This document shows, one piece after another, positions 2,353-14,649 of a stretch of 37,538 nucleotides of DNA (the stretch's first letter is position 1; each line of letters begins with the position of its first letter). The notes under the pieces were generated by a model. It saw only the letters and a program-made list of their open reading frames with translations. It searched no databases and was not told the DNA's origin. Position numbers and translations under genes: made by a program. The DNA comes from a virus. The stretch is from positions 1 through 37,538 of IMG/VR virus record IMGVR_UViG_3300010885_002277; one strand, given 5' to 3'.

Positions 2353-2733
2353 TTACTCCTTAACGATGGTGAATGAAGGGCGACCGGGCGTTGTTGTGAT
2401 TGCTCCCAGAAGCGGCTTGGTGATTTCGTCGGATGCCTTGTCCCATGCTTTTACATTGAGTTCAGGCTTCCAACGAAATAGGATCGGCAGATGTTCGCTC
2501 AGATCATGCTCTGCGGCGATCTCCTGCAATAAATCTGCGTCAACTTTGCGCGTGAACCGCGTTACGAGTTTGATCTCGTAATTATTAGTGGCGCAGATGC
2601 TGATCGTGCGCGTGCCTTCGGCGTTTGATTTTCCGACATGATCCATAATCTCGTCTTCAATCTCACGGCGACGATCTACCGCTTTGCGCTCTGCGTCTTT
2701 GCAGGCGATCCACTCGGCGTAAATATCGCTCAT
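2353..2733 (-). CDS. Conserved phage protein of recombination operon, unknown function
   Basis: A 126-residue charged protein starting MSDIYAEWIACKDAERKAV, with a helical N-terminal half rich in Lys/Arg/Glu and a C-terminal part ending in TIVKE. The type is familiar as a small companion of phage Sak4/DUF669 genes, but I know no biochemical function. The start at 2733 overlaps the TGA of the Sak4 gene in an ATGA junction (2730-2733); a longer reading from 2838 would run 35 codons inside the Sak4 gene and is rejected. The spacing to the following DUF669 gene is only 5 bases, so it is clearly part of the operon. Confidence 0.8.
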   Translation of the reverse strand: MSDIYAEWIACKDAERKAVDRRREIEDEIMDHVGKSNAEGTRTISICATNNYEIKLVTRFTRKVDADLLQEIAAEHDLSEHLPILFRWKPELNVKAWDKASDEITKPLLGAITTTPGRPSFTIVKE

Positions 2734-3404
2734 GATCTTGCTCCGATTTTCTTGATGATCTCGCCAAGGTCTGGCGCTTCCCATGCGTCCAGCTTTCCGC
2801 TGCGATCTTTGGCGTTCCAAAGCCCATCGCCGTCGCACATCAGCGCGCGCTGCGTTCCACCGTCTGCGTCTTTCTCGATCCGCAGCGCCAACACTTCGTC
2901 GAAGAAATACGGCAGCGCTTGGCCGGTCTTGTTTCCCGGCATCGATGGCGAATAAAGAATGCGTCCCATTTCGTCGGTGGCTTTCTCCAACTTCGCGCTC
3001 ATATAAACGTGCTTGGCTGGAAGATCGCGAAACAATCTAATAATCTCGCCCATCTGTTCTTGCATGGCGCCGTATGCTTGACGCGGGTCTTTGGCGATTT
3101 TCTTTTCGTGGATCAGGCAGACTTCGGCGATCTCGCTGATGCTATCGAGCGCCACGCTTTCAAATTTCTCGCCGTCTGGTCCGATCAAAAACTCATAGGC
3201 TTCGCGAAGCGAATCCATGTCGACGATCTCGATGTAAGGCAGGTTGGCGCTTTGCAGCGACAACAGGCCAGCCTCGGCGCTGAGAACGATTGGCGTCGGC
3301 AGCGTCTGAATCAGCGATGTTTTGCCAGCGCCAGCCTGCCCATAGACCAACAGCTTAACGCCATTGGTTGAAAGGCCGCCAGTGTGTTTAATGTTGATTG
3401 CCAT
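2730..3404 (-). CDS. Sak4-like RecA-fold ATPase (phage annealing/recombination)
   Basis: A 224-residue single-domain RecA-fold ATPase. Walker A GQAGAGKTS is at residues 22-30, and VALDSISEI near residue 95 is the Walker B-type strand. Overall length and layout match the AAA_24/Sak4 group of phage proteins that support single-strand annealing recombination together with an SSB. Both partners fit here: the DUF669 SSB gene lies two genes downstream and nucleases follow. The start has a gap of only two bases from the stop of the DUF669-operon boundary gene at 3407. No intein or truncation is seen. Confidence 0.88.
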   Translation of the reverse strand: MAINIKHTGGLSTNGVKLLVYGQAGAGKTSLIQTLPTPIVLSAEAGLLSLQSANLPYIEIVDMDSLREAYEFLIGPDGEKFESVALDSISEIAEVCLIHEKKIAKDPRQAYGAMQEQMGEIIRLFRDLPAKHVYMSAKLEKATDEMGRILYSPSMPGNKTGQALPYFFDEVLALRIEKDADGGTQRALMCDGDGLWNAKDRSGKLDAWEAPDLGEIIKKIGARS

Positions 3405-4033: not shown

Positions 4034-4219
4034 ATGATGGAAATCGACAAAATACGCGCAGCCTTGGCCGATCTCAATCTTGCGGCAGTTGCGGCGGCGA
4101 CCGGCATCCATAAGAATGGGCTTTATGCGTTCAGGCATGGCCGCACCACGCTGCGTTACGATAGCATGGTTAAGCTCGTGAAGTATCTTCAGCAAAGGGA
4201 ATCGATCATCAATGGCTGA
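4034..4219 (+). CDS. Small helix-turn-helix (Cro/CI-like) regulator
   Basis: A 61-residue protein, almost entirely a helix-turn-helix domain: LAAVAAATGIHKNGLYAFR reads as the HTH pair with the recognition helix around residues 24-32, and the C-terminal helix is MVKLVKYLQQR. It has the size of Cro-type proteins, with no oligomerisation or cleavage domain. AGGAAACGAG lies upstream; ATG codons at 4034 and 4037 are both possible. It is the first rightward gene beside a dyad operator and overlaps the primase gene by 8 bases. Likely role: controlling the divergent early promoters; no integrase is present, so it need not be a lysogeny repressor. Confidence 0.85.
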   Translation: MMEIDKIRAALADLNLAAVAAATGIHKNGLYAFRHGRTTLRYDSMVKLVKYLQQRESIING

Positions 4220-6245
4220 TCTTACGAAAATTCTGGGCGGTCCTTGGTCGCCAAAGCCCGCGCCTCGCGTTGATCCGCCAGAGGTGCAGCTTCGCGATGC
4301 GATCTCAGCGTCAGGTCTGATGCCACCGCAAACGATCACGCTCGACGGCAAGATCCACCGCTTTCGATCCGGCACTAAAGGTCAAGGCGGGCATGGCGAC
4401 AAGACAGGCTGGTACATTGCATATGGAGACGGCATCCCTGCTGGTCGTTTTGGATGCTGGCGCTCTGGGCTGGAATCATCGTGGCGTGCTGATGTCGGGC
4501 GCGCGTTTTCAGCCGCTGAAGAAATGGCGCACACGGCGCGCATGGCGGAAGCAAGAGCGCTTCGCGATGCTGAACAGGCGCGAAGCCGAGAAATTGCCAG
4601 CAACAACGTCGATTTGATCTTTTCCAACGCCATCGGCGCGGCGCCTGAGCATCCATATCTGGCGCGCAAAGGCATCCAGCCGCATGGCGCTCGCATCACA
4701 GGCGATGGTCGGCTAGTCGTCCCGCTCTACAATTCAGACGGCGAGCTATCGTCGCTTCAATACATCTCAGACGACGGCGGCAAACAATATCACCCCGGCG
4801 GCGCCACAGGCGGTTGCTTCACGATCATCGGAACAATGGATGATCCCGGCAGGATTTACATTGCCGAAGGATTCGCCACCGCCGCCACGATCCACGAAGC
4901 CACAGGGCGACCTTGCGTCGTCGCATTTTCGGCCAATAATCTCGTGCCGGTGTGTAGCACAATTACCGACAATTTCGGATACACAAGCCAGATCGTGATC
5001 GTGGCTGATAACGACGCCAGCGGGATTGGCCAGAAATACGCCAATCAGGCATCGGCAAAATATGGCGCCCGCGTGATAGTCCCCCCATTTCTGGGCGATG
5101 CCAACGACTACAAGCAGGCGGGCGAAGATTTGGCGATCTTGTTAGAGCCGGTCTTAGATAATTGGCTGATCCCGATTGATGAGTTCAGAAAACAGCCAAG
5201 CCCGATCACATGGCTAGTTGAAGGTTGGATTCAATCTAACGCTTTGATCATGGTCCACGGTCCATCAGGCGGCGGCAAGACATTTGTCGTGCTTGATTGG
5301 TGTCTTAGAATGGCCGCAGGAATTAGCGAATGGGCGACTAGCATAGTCAAGGCTGGAAACGTCGTTTATCTCGCAGGCGAAGGCCATTACGGTTTGCGCG
5401 GGCGAGTCGCAGCATGGGCGCATCATAATGTCGTGGGAAAAATGAGTATGTGGATTTCCCGCGATGGATGCGATCTCAACACAGCCGAAGGTTTTCGACG
5501 AGTTGTCGATAACGTCTCGGAATTGCCAAGCGTGCCAAATTTGATCGTAGTCGATACGCTCCACCGCTTTCTACTCGGCGATGAAAACAGCGCTCAGGAT
5601 GCCAAAACGATGCTCGACGCCTGCAATGCGCTCATGAATAAATTCAACTGCGCCGTGCTTTTAGTCCACCATACCGGCGTTAGCGACGAGGCGCAGCACC
5701 GGGCGCGCGGGTCATCTGCATGGCGTGGCGCGCTCGATATTGAGATTAGCATCATACCAAGCAAGTCTGGCTCGCCTATGCAGATCGTGCAGCGCAAATC
5801 TAAAGACGCCGAAATGGCAGAGCCGGTTTACGCCGAATTGCGCTCGATTGAAATTCCAGATTGGTTCAACGAGCACGGTAAACCAGTAACCAGCGCCATT
5901 GTTGAGATTGTAGAAACGCCAGCCGAAGCGCCAAAGAAAGACAGCAAAATACAAAGCCAAGTTCAGATTATGCAGCGCGCGTGGTTTGCCTCAGAATGCG
6001 AAGAACGAGACGGCCAGCCATATATTAGCCGGTCGGCGTTGGCTGAATTGCTCCAAAAAGACGGCAAGGCACCGCGCACCGTGCGCAACAAAATGAATCC
6101 ATCCTATGATGATGGAATTATTGCGCAGCTTATCAATGGAAGCATTATCGAGCCGGTTGAACACGGCTGGAAAATCATCAGCCAAACTATAACGGCAGCA
6201 TGGTTATTGCGTAAAAATGGTAGCTCAACAGTTGACCCTAAATGA
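4212..6245 (+). CDS. Toprim primase / RepA-like AAA helicase fusion
   Basis: A 677-residue replication protein. The N-terminal part is a primase region with a Toprim domain: RIYIAEGFATAATIHEATG (about 214-232) supplies the catalytic Glu and VIVADNDASG (about 262-271) the DxD. The C-terminal part is a RecA-fold hexameric helicase or RepA-like ATPase (AAA_25 type) with Walker A GPSGGGKT at 350-357 and Walker B LIVVDT at about 444-449, followed by the VHHTG sensor-like segment. No zinc-binding motif is evident at the N-terminus. It would prime and unwind at the phage origin. The stop TGA lies inside the second copy of the TGACCCT repeats downstream. The start overlaps the HTH gene, implying coupling. 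Confidence 0.9.
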   Translation: MADLTKILGGPWSPKPAPRVDPPEVQLRDAISASGLMPPQTITLDGKIHRFRSGTKGQGGHGDKTGWYIAYGDGIPAGRFGCWRSGLESSWRADVGRAFSAAEEMAHTARMAEARALRDAEQARSREIASNNVDLIFSNAIGAAPEHPYLARKGIQPHGARITGDGRLVVPLYNSDGELSSLQYISDDGGKQYHPGGATGGCFTIIGTMDDPGRIYIAEGFATAATIHEATGRPCVVAFSANNLVPVCSTITDNFGYTSQIVIVADNDASGIGQKYANQASAKYGARVIVPPFLGDANDYKQAGEDLAILLEPVLDNWLIPIDEFRKQPSPITWLVEGWIQSNALIMVHGPSGGGKTFVVLDWCLRMAAGISEWATSIVKAGNVVYLAGEGHYGLRGRVAAWAHHNVVGKMSMWISRDGCDLNTAEGFRRVVDNVSELPSVPNLIVVDTLHRFLLGDENSAQDAKTMLDACNALMNKFNCAVLLVHHTGVSDEAQHRARGSSAWRGALDIEISIIPSKSGSPMQIVQRKSKDAEMAEPVYAELRSIEIPDWFNEHGKPVTSAIVEIVETPAEAPKKDSKIQSQVQIMQRAWFASECEERDGQPYISRSALAELLQKDGKAPRTVRNKMNPSYDDGIIAQLINGSIIEPVEHGWKIISQTITAAWLLRKNGSSTVDPK

Positions 6246-6346
6246 CCCTAAGGGTCAAAAAAGGGTCAGGGTCAAAAATGGGCAAAACAGCGCGATATTT
6301 GACCCTCCCTGACCCTCTCTCCTTAAGGAGAGGGTCATGAGGGTCA
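6233..6346. repeat. Nine-copy TGACCCT iteron-like cluster
   Basis: The 7-mer TGACCCT occurs on the plus strand at 6233, 6243, 6300 and 6310, and as its complement AGGGTCA at 6251, 6262, 6268, 6331 and 6340. The copies form two modules, each with two forward copies 10 bases apart facing two or three inverted copies spaced 6-11 bases. The second module is centred on a 16-bp palindrome around CCTTAAGG. The first two copies lie in the last codons of the primase-helicase gene. Location and near-helical phasing suggest an iteron-type replication origin or a multimeric operator; no protein has been tied to it. Confidence 0.85.
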
Positions 6347-6362
6347 CGCGATGCAGGCGGAT

Positions 6363-6566
6363 TTAGGGAGCGTTGAAGACATGCCTAGTGAGATGCAAGA
6401 TCGCAGAATGGCAAACGTCCCATTCTGTCCAAACATCGCTTGGAATTGGGTCACGGCCAAGCGCTGCGCACCATGCGAACCAAAGCACCGGATCAGGTTC
6501 GTTCTCAATCGATGGCTGGTGCGATGGCATGGCGGCGAGAAGGTCGAGCGCTTGTTGGCGGGTCAT
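6363..6566 (-). CDS. Small Trp-rich protein encoded antisense to the late transcript
   Basis: A 67-residue protein starting MTRQQALDLLAAMPSHQPS, with several Trp residues in a WFAWCAALGRDP...VWTEWD core. It has normal codon use and composition. Its ATG overlaps the TGA of the upstream 27-residue membrane peptide (ATGA at 6566-6563), so translation is probably coupled. The rightward 113-codon frame covering the same DNA lacks a good ribosome-binding site and looks like a shadow. Function unknown; it lies between the iteron cluster and the structured leader. Confidence 0.6.
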   Translation of the reverse strand: MTRQQALDLLAAMPSHQPSIENEPDPVLWFAWCAALGRDPIPSDVWTEWDVCHSAILHLTRHVFNAP

Positions 6567-6646
6567 GATGCGAAGCCTATGGTTAAGAATACGATGGCGG
6601 TGCAGAATAGTACGGCGGCGAGCAAATCGAAAATGGCGCTGAACAT
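6563..6646 (-). CDS. 27-residue single-span membrane peptide
   Basis: A 27-codon reading frame opening MFSAIFDLLAAVLF, ending LTIGFAS, that is almost wholly one hydrophobic segment, preceded by AGGAG at 7 bases. Its TGA overlaps the ATG of the 67-residue gene. A strong ribosome-binding site plus coupled junction argue that it is translated. Such peptides in phages act in membrane targeting, superinfection exclusion or as holin modulators, but nothing in the sequence discriminates between these. Confidence 0.55.
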   Translation of the reverse strand: MFSAIFDLLAAVLFCTAIVFLTIGFAS

Positions 6647-6708
6647 TGGCGGCTCCTGTATTGGTTCGATCAATATATGGTCAAGGTGTTAAAAAAAGGT
6701 TAAGCAGT

Positions 6709-6828: not shown

Positions 6829-7014
6829 ATGGGCAGTTCAGAATTTTATTGGTCGGCGTACTTAATGCAAATGCTGGCGGTGCAATGCGCCCAGCTTCAT
6901 GGTCAAGATGCGCTGGTAGATGAGTATATGCTCAAGGCTAACGAATATATCGATCTGCACTTTGATGCGATTGAGACGCATATGAACAATCTCAGGGAAT
7001 TTAATAATGGTTAA
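6829..7014 (+). CDS. Small acidic helical protein, unknown
   Basis: A 61-residue protein starting MGSSEFYWSAYLMQMLAVQ, predicted helical and acidic, with no recognised family. The ATG at 6829 is preceded by GGAAGGA at about 7 bases; a longer reading from 6646 runs through the hairpin region and has no ribosome-binding site. It follows the structured leader and overlaps the ParB-like gene by 8 bases, so it is the first gene of that transcript and the direct target of any leader control. Confidence 0.7.
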   Translation: MGSSEFYWSAYLMQMLAVQCAQLHGQDALVDEYMLKANEYIDLHFDAIETHMNNLREFNNG

Positions 7015-7822
7015 GCAAGGCAAAATTGGCACTAAAAAGGATCAGGCATGGCCAGCCGATCACGTCGAGCGCCGGTCGGTTGAAAGCCTGATCCCATACG
7101 CTCGCAATGCCCGCACGCACTCGGATGCACAGGTGGCGCAACTAGCAGCGTCTATTCAGGAATGGGGCTGGACTACGCCTGTGCTGATCGATGAAGCTGG
7201 CGGCATCATTGCTGGGCATGGTCGCATCATGGCGGCTCGTAAGCTGAACATCGAAGAAGTTCCTGTAATGATCGCCACAGGATGGAGCGAGGCGCAGCGC
7301 CGAGCATATGTGCTAGCGGACAATCAGCTGGCTATGAACGCTGGCTGGGATATGGATTTGCTAAAGGTTGAGCTTGGCGATCTCGGAGAGATGGGATTTG
7401 ACCTAGACCTTATCGGATTAGATCAGAAAGAAATCGAAGCAATATCTAACGATAATGTCGTTGGAAACATGTACTCCGATAAAGTGTCTGTCCCAACATA
7501 TGAGCCAAGCGAATCAAAGCCAAAGATCGAAGATTTGTATGATGATCTAAAAGCAATGGATCTCATCTTTTCTATTAAAGAAAGCAAACTGAACGAAAAA
7601 GAAAAACAATTTCTAATGGCGGCGGCATCTCGCCATATTGTTTTTGATTACTCTAAGATTGCTGATTTTTATTCTCACGCATCTGATGAGTGCCAAAAGT
7701 TGATGGAAGAAAACGCGCTTGTCATTGTTGACTTTAATCAAGCGATTGAGAATGGATTTGTGAAAATATCGAAGCAAATGGATGATCTTATTGATTACGA
7801 TGAAGATCACAATGAAGAATGA
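7007..7822 (+). CDS. ParB/Srx-domain protein with an AT-rich C-terminal extension
   Basis: A 271-residue protein. Residues about 22-110 are a ParB N-terminal (ParB/sulfiredoxin-fold) domain, with SLIPYARNARTHSDAQVAQL and the conserved GGIIAGHGRIMAARKL box. Phages often place such domains with DNA methyltransferase or base-modification genes, where they bind or cut DNA and hydrolyse nucleotides. From about residue 141 the character changes. The extension is Lys/Glu-rich, includes LMAAASRHIVFDYSKIADFY and ALVIVDFNQAIENGFV, and has no ParB helix-turn-helix. GC falls from 56% (7081-7380) to 36% (7441-7800) at this boundary. I think I have seen this kind of extension on other phage ParB proteins but cannot name it. 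Confidence 0.85.
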   Translation: MVKQGKIGTKKDQAWPADHVERRSVESLIPYARNARTHSDAQVAQLAASIQEWGWTTPVLIDEAGGIIAGHGRIMAARKLNIEEVPVMIATGWSEAQRRAYVLADNQLAMNAGWDMDLLKVELGDLGEMGFDLDLIGLDQKEIEAISNDNVVGNMYSDKVSVPTYEPSESKPKIEDLYDDLKAMDLIFSIKESKLNEKEKQFLMAAASRHIVFDYSKIADFYSHASDECQKLMEENALVIVDFNQAIENGFVKISKQMDDLIDYDEDHNEE

Positions 7823-8765
7823 ATATATTCTAGTAAGGCATGGTCAAACCTATTGGAACAAGAATGGGATCATGCATGGGCAGTACGACATACCCCTGAA
7901 CGATACTGGTCACAAACAAGCAAAGAAGATCGCGCAAGAGTTAAAGATCGAACATTTTGATCTTTGCTATTGCTCTCCATTACAGAGGGCAAAGTCAACG
8001 GCGGCTCGCATTCTGTTCAATCATCGCAACACAAGGGCGGTGTATGACAGAAGATTGATGGAGCTCAACAAAGGCCTGCTCGAAGGAAAACATCTCAACA
8101 GCGAGAAATTGCTAAAAAACGAAGATCATAAATTTTTGAAAAAATACCAGATCGAAAGCAAGAACGATTTTTTTATGAGGGTTAAGTCATTCGTTGCAGA
8201 TGTTGAGAGTCGATACACTGGAAAGAGAATCTTGATTGTCGCCCATAGCGGCACAATCAAAATGCTTATGTTCGCTTTTGATCCACCAAAAAAAGAACTG
8301 CATAAAGCCTACTACGATCTGCACATTAAAAACTGCAAGCCTTACAGAATCAAACCACCATCAGAGAAAGTCAGCAAAATGAAAATTGGATTCTTTCCCA
8401 TGGTCGCAGATGTCCTGCACGCTGGTCATGTGATCGCGCTTGAGGAAGCAAAGAAGCATTGCGATCTTCTGATCGTTGGTTTGCATTGCAACCCATCATA
8501 CAAAGAGCCACGCCAATCAATCTATGAACGCTATATGCAGCTTCGTGCTGTGAAATTTGTAGACGAAGTGATCCCATACGAAAGCTCAGATCGCGATGCT
8601 GATATGTTTGTATCGCTTGAATACGATGTGTATTTTCTTGGCGAAGATCATCGGCAAGACGAATGGGAAATGAAGGACAAGATCGAAGCTCTTGATAAAG
8701 AGATCATATATCTGAAGCGCAAACATGGATATAGCAGCACACGGGTGAAAAATGGAAAACTCTAA
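7812..8765 (+). CDS. Bifunctional histidine phosphatase / TagD-like nucleotidyltransferase
   Basis: A 317-residue two-domain enzyme. Residues 1-180 are a phosphoglycerate-mutase-type histidine phosphatase: LVRHGQTYWN carries the nucleophile His10, a Glu lies near residue 84 (RRLMELNKG), and IVAHSGTIK gives the second His145. Residues about 190-317 resemble glycerol-3-phosphate cytidylyltransferase (TagD) and related transferases: GFFPMVADVLHAGH contains the HxGH signature (203-206), DVYFLGEDH is the metal/substrate strand and YSSTR (307-311) corresponds to the ISSTxxR motif. The pair would remove one phosphate and activate a sugar or polyol phosphate as an NDP-linked donor. The start at 7812 overlaps the ParB-like gene by 11 bases. 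An ATG at 7800 is possible. Substrate unknown. Confidence 0.85.
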   Translation: MKNEYILVRHGQTYWNKNGIMHGQYDIPLNDTGHKQAKKIAQELKIEHFDLCYCSPLQRAKSTAARILFNHRNTRAVYDRRLMELNKGLLEGKHLNSEKLLKNEDHKFLKKYQIESKNDFFMRVKSFVADVESRYTGKRILIVAHSGTIKMLMFAFDPPKKELHKAYYDLHIKNCKPYRIKPPSEKVSKMKIGFFPMVADVLHAGHVIALEEAKKHCDLLIVGLHCNPSYKEPRQSIYERYMQLRAVKFVDEVIPYESSDRDADMFVSLEYDVYFLGEDHRQDEWEMKDKIEALDKEIIYLKRKHGYSSTRVKNGKL

Positions 8766-9654
8766 AAATTACGCAGTTTTCATTTTGACTCATGGCAGAC
8801 CTGACAACGTAATCACTTACAATGTTCTGCGTAGTTCTGGATATACGGGGAAAATTTATCTTATCGTCGATGATGAAGATCAGACAATCGATGAGTACAA
8901 AAAGAGATACAAAAATGAAGTCATAGTTTTCAGCAAGAGTTCATATCAAGGCAAGTTTGACTTAATGGACAACTTCAAGGGAAACAAGGTAATCGTGTAC
9001 GCTAGGAATGCTTGCTATGACATAGCAAGAAATCTTGGGCTCGATTATTTTTTTGAGTATGAAGATGATTATACAGGTTTTTACCATCGCTATGTTGATG
9101 GAGAAAAACTTGCAGCCATTAAATCCAAGCGAATGGATGATGTCTTATTGAGCATGATCGAGTGCTTAGACAGTACAAAATCAACAACGATTGCGTTTGC
9201 ACAAGGAGGAGACTGCATAGGAGGAGCTAAGGACTTTCATAGGGTGCAATTCAAACGCAAAGCAATGAATAGCTTTTTGTTTAAAGTGAATGAAGACCCA
9301 AAAGACGATTGCACTTTTATCGGAAGAATGAACGACGACGTAAATACATATTTAACACACGGAAAACTAGGAAAGCTGTTTTTCCAAATATCTAATGTCA
9401 TGTTGATACAAAAAGCCACTCAATCAAATGCTGGAGGAAATACAGAAGCATATAAAGAATTTGGAACTTATGTGAAATCTTTTTATTCTGTGATAGCTGA
9501 ACCATCTTGCTGCAAGATAGCTATGATGGGTACTGCGCATCAACGCATCCATCATAAAATAAATTGGAACAATGCTGTTCCGAAAATAGTTCATGAACGT
9601 CATAAAAAGACAAACAGAGAGATGGTCAATGGTTCGCATAGCACACAAGCCTGA
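8752..9654 (+). CDS. TET-associated-type glycosyltransferase (TAGT-like), GT-A fold
   Basis: A 300-residue protein with the features of the TAGT group of phage glycosyltransferases: an N-terminal strand and turn AVFILTHGRPDNVITYNVL, the donor-binding strand KIYLIVDDEDQTIDEY, the VIVYARNACYDIARNLGL helix and a metal-binding EYEDD (102-106), plus a second acidic RMNDDVNTY (192-200). This family was described from phage neighbourhoods with TET/JBP dioxygenases, as enzymes glycosylating oxidised bases in DNA. No such dioxygenase is present here. It overlaps the upstream donor-synthesis gene by 14 bases and the small terminase gene by 26. GC is about 35% in sampled lines. It would act in the cytoplasm on DNA or another acceptor; the family assignment is from recalled motifs. 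Confidence 0.82.
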   Translation: MENSKNYAVFILTHGRPDNVITYNVLRSSGYTGKIYLIVDDEDQTIDEYKKRYKNEVIVFSKSSYQGKFDLMDNFKGNKVIVYARNACYDIARNLGLDYFFEYEDDYTGFYHRYVDGEKLAAIKSKRMDDVLLSMIECLDSTKSTTIAFAQGGDCIGGAKDFHRVQFKRKAMNSFLFKVNEDPKDDCTFIGRMNDDVNTYLTHGKLGKLFFQISNVMLIQKATQSNAGGNTEAYKEFGTYVKSFYSVIAEPSCCKIAMMGTAHQRIHHKINWNNAVPKIVHERHKKTNREMVNGSHSTQA

Positions 9655-13842: not shown

Positions 13843-14649
13843 ATGCCAAAGCCTAGCAAGACTGAAAACAGACAAGAGTTTATAGACCGCTGCATGGGTT
13901 TCGACAGATATGTCGAAAAGTATCCAGACGGCGATCAGCGCTTTGCGGTGTGCAATTCCATCTGGGATGATGAAAAACCAAAATCGGATGATGCCATGAT
14001 AAGTTTCAAAAACGTATCGTTGAGCTTGAAGAAAGAGCCAGACGAAGATGGCATGTTCGAAGGCTATGCGTCTGTTTTCGGAATCATCGATCAAGGCATG
14101 GACGTTGTTGAGCGCGGCGCTTTCCGCAAATCGCTTGGCAGCGGGCGCAGGGTCAAGATGCTTTGGCAGCATGATATGGCGCAGCCAATCGGCGTTTTTG
14201 ATTACATCGAAGAAGATGATCGCGGGCTGTTCGTGAAGGGTCGTCTGCTCAAGGATGTCCAGAAAGGCCGCGAGGCTATGGCGCTGATGCGAGCTGGCGC
14301 CATTGACAGCATGTCCATCGGCTATCGCACGGTTGAAGCAGTCGCTGAAGGCGATGGCCGCGTGCGCAAGCTGATGGAAGTAGATTTGTTTGAGATTAGT
14401 TTGGTCACGTTCCCGATGCTGCCTGATGCTAAGGTGACATCGGTCAAGAGCATTGCGACCGAACGCGAGTTCGAGAAATTCCTGCGGGAAGCAGGATATT
14501 CTCGTAAAGACGCCGCTGCGATTACATTGCACGGCTTCAAGGCCATAACCGATCAGCGGGATGCTGAGACTGGCGAGGCGAAGGACGAGGGTATTTCTGC
14601 TCTCATTGAACGCATCAACAATCTCACAGGAAAGCTGAATCATGTCTGA
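13843..14649 (+). CDS. Prohead maturation protease (HK97 gp4-like, S78)
   Basis: A 268-residue protease. The catalytic His110 lies in MLWQHDMAQPIG and Ser158 in AIDSMSIGY, as in HK97 prohead proteases. An N-terminal extension of about 45 residues has RCMGFDRYVEKYPDGDQRF and VCNSIWDDE, a module often found next to or fused to phage head genes. The enzyme digests scaffolding and the capsid delta domain inside the prohead. GGTGA is a weak ribosome-binding site upstream of the ATG. The 3' end overlaps the capsid start by 8 bases. Confidence 0.92.
   Translation: MPKPSKTENRQEFIDRCMGFDRYVEKYPDGDQRFAVCNSIWDDEKPKSDDAMISFKNVSLSLKKEPDEDGMFEGYASVFGIIDQGMDVVERGAFRKSLGSGRRVKMLWQHDMAQPIGVFDYIEEDDRGLFVKGRLLKDVQKGREAMALMRAGAIDSMSIGYRTVEAVAEGDGRVRKLMEVDLFEISLVTFPMLPDAKVTSVKSIATEREFEKFLREAGYSRKDAAAITLHGFKAITDQRDAETGEAKDEGISALIERINNLTGKLNHV

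Follow-up and report, generated by a model that had tools for sequence, protein, structure and literature searches.

A two-module iteron array behind a phage primase-helicase gene and its proposed reading by the C-terminal domain of the enzyme

The iteron array and the gene in front of it

The viral sequence analysed here, IMG/VR record IMGVR_UViG_3300010885_002277 (positions 1 to 37,538, the whole of which is referred to as the window), carries nine copies of the heptamer TGACCCT within 114 bases at the 3' end of a gene for a primase-helicase of 677 amino acids (4212-6245, plus strand; Pfam and PHROGs matches). The protein contains a Toprim_3 domain (residues 215-303), a RepA/RecA-like AAA_25 helicase core (residues 322-491), which is related to RSF1010 RepA (1G8Y; phmmer E 9e-5), and a C-terminal domain that is predicted to be a winged helix (residues 570-677; 5919-6242, plus strand). 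This last domain is proposed to be the reader of the iterons, on the basis of an AlphaFold2 model and of comparisons in which its identity predicts the iteron word.

An earlier note on this DNA had described nine copies in two opposed modules, each with two forward copies facing two or three inverted ones, and the exact-match count of TGACCCT/AGGGTCA bears this out for positions 6233-6346. Module 1 (6233-6274, not assigned to a strand) has forward copies starting at 6233 and 6243 and inverted copies at 6251, 6262 and 6268, an arrangement which is kept in relatives, and module 2 (6300-6346, likewise without strand) has forward copies at 6300 and 6310 and inverted copies at 6331 and 6340. The primase-helicase open reading frame (ORF) runs into the array: its 3' end includes the first iteron, and its stop codon is the TGA of the second. 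The start-to-start gaps are 10, 8, 11, 6, 32, 10, 21 and 9, so the spacing of about one helical turn that had been claimed holds roughly, but not for copies 4 and 5, which are 6 apart and share one base, nor for the two larger gaps, which correspond to about two and about three turns.

The modules are separated by a spacer of 60% A+T (6275-6299, no strand), within which lies a conserved, strand-specific element, the GGGCAAAAC box (6280-6288, plus strand), found by motif count and alignment and common to several word classes. The palindrome that the earlier note had placed in the second module is also there: repeat search and alignment located the perfect palindrome CTCTCCTTAAGGAGAG at 6317-6332, between the forward and the inverted copies. 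When the rest of the genome was checked, as the note had advised, only two further copies of TGACCCT were found in the other 37.4 kb, at 14149 and 27772. Extrapolated to 114 bases, this outside density would give about 0.006 copies, and dinucleotide shuffles of the window gave a mean of 1.9 copies per whole window and never reached 11.

Conservation of the array in relatives

Protein scans identified more than 300 loci with related proteins, of which 227 were non-redundant and had a stop codon with at least 150 nucleotides downstream (individual loci are given as L numbers); the loci are related to one another, and the counts are therefore not independent. A hexamer was repeated at least five times downstream of the gene in 202 of 211 aligned members. 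In two members the array is shifted, by about 0.3 kb in L076 and by 1.0 kb in L303, both of which have GGTAAC, the word predicted from their reader residues. More than 200 relatives retain the two modules behind this gene, while the word itself falls into about 20 classes, including TGACCCT, CGGTCCG, CGGTACG, GGTAAC, GGAAC and TAGGGGC. Isolated phages are among the carriers: Salicola phage CGphi29 (TGTCCCC), Idiomarinaceae phage 1N2-2 (GGTACA) and Alteromonas phages PB15 and XX1924 (GGTTCA).

Within the TGACCCT class, the order of copies (two forward, three inverted, two forward, two inverted) and their gaps (10, 8-9, 11-12, 6, 31, 10, 22-24 and 7-9) are nearly fixed, with the array at -13 to +49 from the stop codon. 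The other word classes keep the two modules, with a copy order that is not always the same. Among 110 array regions, 65 have GGGCAAA or GGGGCAA, representing the GGGCAAAAC box, on the plus strand and none has it on the minus strand; the in-gene control has neither motif. Word density is 22.6/kb in the array region, compared with 0.34/kb upstream of the operon and 0.40/kb within the gene.

The relationship was also examined in reverse, from DNA to protein. The module 1 pattern of the TGACCCT class, used as DNA alone, was searched for in 2.9 million viral contigs and found arrays in 45 of them, all 45 of which have a primase-helicase gene with a matching RT[VI]RN-type reader (for L347 the gene was read as far as the helicase, and the reader was seen in full in its sister L357). 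The array lies 1-91 nucleotides from the gene on the same strand in 41 contigs, 2.1 kb away in one and 3.8 kb away in another; in the remaining two it directly follows a gene with an alternative helicase core on the opposite strand. Altogether, array and gene are within about 100 nucleotides of each other in 43 contigs. As a matching reader was found in every contig, the array can be regarded as a DNA element that is separable from the gene and matched to the protein. The possibility of an array without the gene, as in the hijacking of an origin, was rejected, because the gene is present 3.8 kb from the array in L361, the sole candidate. The reader domain was not found on its own, as a decoy or nuclease mimic, among the matches to one class, 80 out of 80 of which were fused to a helicase.

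The array could also be a cooperative operator, from which the primase-helicase or another protein regulates the downstream genes or its own operon. In plasmids, the iterons bound by initiators are often autoregulatory sites as well, and in the window an ORF (6351-6692) starts 5 nucleotides past the array. However, the operon with which the array covaries is in front of it, and the word is sparse upstream of that operon. The downstream genes vary among relatives, the array can be 1.0-3.8 kb from the gene, and a sigma-70-like promoter was not found in it. We therefore regard an operator as an unlikely explanation.

A different possibility is that the inverted repeats serve an RNA or single-stranded DNA structure, such as a terminator, an mRNA stabiliser or a hairpin for single-strand initiation, with stem formation as the only reason for the repetition of the word. 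The strand does fold strongly (-36.1 kcal/mol, z -8.95), and alignment of the relatives showed that the arms of the module 2 palindrome differ in sequence yet stay complementary. Stem formation, however, does not call for one and the same word in the two modules, for direct copies at a fixed gap or for covariation with a DNA-binding domain, and in one contig the array is 3.8 kb from the gene. The array had no match in Rfam, and a terminator-like site (a G+C-rich stem followed by a T run) was not found in it. A purely structural role is considered very improbable, although the palindrome may be a structural component of an origin.

Covariation of the iteron word with the C-terminal domain

If the array is read by the primase-helicase, the part of the protein that changes with the word should indicate the reader. 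Pairwise sharing of words correlated with identity of residues 583-665 (r 0.50; partial correlation 0.44 given primase and helicase; Mantel test, 0 of 499 permutations), and the corresponding partial correlations were -0.18 for the primase, 0.08 for the helicase and -0.03 for the upstream helix-turn-helix (HTH) protein. The tree of the primase part requires 52 changes of word class, compared with 22 on the tree of the C-terminal part. Natural swaps are found in the pairs L121/L117, L279/L281 and L174/L030, in which the N-terminal parts are 99% identical, the C-terminal parts are 32-51% identical and the words differ.

The comparison was narrowed to single residues by a column scan of the whole protein with no prior choice of positions. 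Positions 632 and 633 ranked first for GGTCCG against GGTACG, and 626, 633 and 632 were at the top for GGTAAC against GGAAC. In the pair L087/L084, the C-terminal domains differ only at Q626V, S632A and P633T, and Ser632 accompanies GGTACG in two distant groups (the L010/L014 type and the L174-176 type), which also differ in the helicase core. When the word was assigned from the nearest neighbour by 19 recognition residues, it was correct in 116 of 119 cases at a likeness of at least 75%, compared with 54% for the nearest neighbour by the N-terminal part in this set. Where the N-terminal parts were less than 70% identical, the 19-residue neighbour was correct in 30 of 30 cases and the N-terminal neighbour in 3%. 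These comparisons support the placing of iteron specificity in the C-terminal domain of the initiator.

In the DNA-free AlphaFold2 model of this domain (predicted local distance difference test score 85.7), the order is helix, helix, recognition helix and wing, with residues 625 and 626 on the recognition helix and 632 and 633 directly after it. In the window, the codons for the predicted recognition helix (621-628, including R625 and N626) and the following loop (629-635, including Y632 and D633) are at 6072-6116 on the plus strand, as defined by the column scan and the model. Sequence searches of PDB and Pfam with the domain gave no match, and it is predicted to be a winged helix without a Pfam entry or a named family.

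It could be argued that another protein reads the iterons and that covariation with the primase-helicase is a matter of linkage only, as the C-terminal coding region adjoins the array and the two would be exchanged together by recombination. An example of such a protein is the product of the small Cro/C1-type HTH gene which overlaps the start of the primase-helicase gene (4034-4219, plus strand; weak HTH_3 match, same order in relatives). This candidate was rejected by its partial correlation of -0.03, and the gene is probably a regulator of the operon and not the iteron reader. Under linkage there is also no reason for the same two or three recognition-helix residues to switch with the word in separate contrasts, and the match between word and reader persists when the array is 1-3.8 kb from the gene. 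Of the explanations considered, we give linkage the least credence.

Further combinations of domains were observed among the relatives. In some, the same primase-helicase ends in one of two other C-terminal domains that are unrelated, one found in L153-L155 with the word GGGGGTCT and one in L156/L157 with TGTTAG. A different AAA helicase core is present between the same primase and reader in L031, L032, L173-L176, L347 and L357, and the array still matches the reader. In L312 (MW202867, 12539-14431), Prim-Pol, PriCT_1 and AAA_25 domains are joined to the same reader domain and followed by eight TGGGACA iterons; this version has a BFVD match, A0A6J5RWR5. Judged from these sequences, the reader domain is common to two primase types, Toprim and Prim-Pol.

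The array as a candidate replication origin

The earlier note had suggested an origin or a cooperative operator beside a replication gene, and this fits the comparative evidence; of the two, an origin is preferred because the word follows the C-terminal domain of the primase-helicase and is not enriched upstream. We consider it very likely that the array is the replication origin of the phage, bound by the C-terminal domain of its own primase-helicase, and that domain and array form an exchangeable specificity unit. The C-terminal winged helix would bind each TGACCCT copy. Two helicase oligomers, probably hexamers, would be loaded by the copies that face each other in the two modules, in opposing orientations around the spacer, after which the fused Toprim primase would prime and replication would start at the array. 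The loading and priming steps follow the precedent of satellite P4 and of the phage-inducible chromosomal islands (PICIs), including the Staphylococcus aureus pathogenicity islands (SaPIs). A change of word, judging from the associations seen by comparison, would involve replacement of the C-terminal domain or two to three substitutions at 626, 632 and 633, with all copies rewritten.

Several results weigh against the array being such an origin, in addition to the relatedness of the loci. According to the earlier note, its interpretation would be refuted by relatives that retain the same replication genes and lack the repeats. Most relatives do lack TGACCCT, yet at the position of the array they have a comparable one built from another word; 7 of 211 (L018, L020, L021, L022, L042, L152 and L207) have no recognisable array in the DNA examined. 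Branch-independent pairs with a switch of word on supported branches are few (three and two) and, while all are consistent, the sign tests are too small to reach significance by themselves. In four of five genomes the cumulative GC-skew minimum is no more than a few kb from the array, but it tracks the point at which gene direction diverges, and MW202867 is the exception; as GC skew is confounded by gene strand, it was not used as evidence for an origin. The spacer is only mildly enriched in A+T (60% in the window, class mean 57.5%, genome 49.7%); in PICIs the region between the iteron sets is A+T-rich. Finally, fold searches of PDB with the C-terminal domain returned generic winged helices only and, the sequence searches being empty, the domain was left without a family name; P4 alpha was absent among the fold matches listed, which does not exclude a relation. 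As a separate observation, L021 and L022 keep the GGGGGGCAAA box and a palindrome, with the repeats present only as traces.

The proposed arrangement has parallels in several systems. In the alpha protein of P4, primase and helicase are fused, and a winged helix at the C-terminus binds the origin by reading short iterons, at ori1 and crr. The phage protein is likewise a primase-helicase fusion with a C-terminal winged helix (here a predicted fold), but has Toprim_3 and AAA_25 domains in place of the P4-type primase and SF3 helicase, and both modules lie within 114 bp in the window whereas P4 has two distant sites. In RSF1010, RepC reads the iterons and RepA itself is not known to do so; the phage protein has a helicase core of the same family as RepA (1G8Y), but with the reader fused to it.

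The closest likeness in layout is to the rep-ori regions of PICIs, in which two iteron sets lie immediately 3' of rep, a layout described in 2018 as unique to PICIs, and the pri-rep-ori function of EcCICFT073 has been tested on plasmids (PMC6092414). In SaPI Rep it is the C-terminal domain that recognises the iterons, which follow immediately after the rep gene (PMC7581432). Shared features are an origin (here a proposed one) directly 3' of the initiator gene, two opposed iteron sets flanking a spacer and a C-terminal reader (identified here by covariation), and the PICI primase is sometimes fused. The RepA/RecA-like AAA_25 core with a Toprim primase is, however, unrelated to the PICI helicase, and while these satellite islands need the structural and packaging genes of a helper phage, the window encodes a terminase and a portal and represents a tailed phage.

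In Vibrio cholerae, the DNA-binding domain and iterons of RepA from the phage-inducible chromosomal island-like element (PLE) covary and are swapped as a module, and the iteron-targeting phage nuclease Odn selects for change (PMC8263062); a fused primase or helicase is not described in the parts of the source consulted. In the phage family, too, reader domain and iterons covary and would be exchanged together. Specificity residues were also inferred by comparison for the 'iteron-related domain' of geminivirus Rep (Arguello-Astorga and Ruiz-Medrano 2001, as cited in PMC6669703), a rolling-circle initiator of plant viruses, which differs from the phage protein in both ancestry and mechanism.

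A PICI-like two-module origin would now be placed in ordinary tailed phages that together form a large family, and the question is raised why phages keep altering the identity of their own origin. One tentative answer, to which we give somewhat less than even weight, is that, in what is a very common family of phages, origin identity behaves as an allelic recognition system under diversifying selection, in which an unnamed winged helix is swapped or retuned at three residues and the iterons are rewritten in concert, with about 20 words coexisting. The driver could plausibly be origin-targeting parasites or nucleases, or competition among phages that infect the same cell. Such a system would offer a legible amino-acid-to-base code for replication initiators, and the recognition code between initiator and DNA can be tested directly with natural sister pairs in which three residues of the protein and one or two bases of the word differ.

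Other genes lie on both sides of the locus. The ORF that starts behind the last iteron (6351-6692) had no match in Pfam or PHROGs and may not be a real gene. A divergent gene for a Sak4-like single-strand annealing ATPase (2730-3404, minus strand) is in the same position in isolated relatives. Downstream, a ParB-like gene (7007-7822), a fusion of histidine phosphatase and cytidylyltransferase (7782-8765) and a TET-associated glycosyltransferase, TAGT (8752-9654), occur together, which suggests that 7007-9654 is a cluster for DNA base hypermodification.
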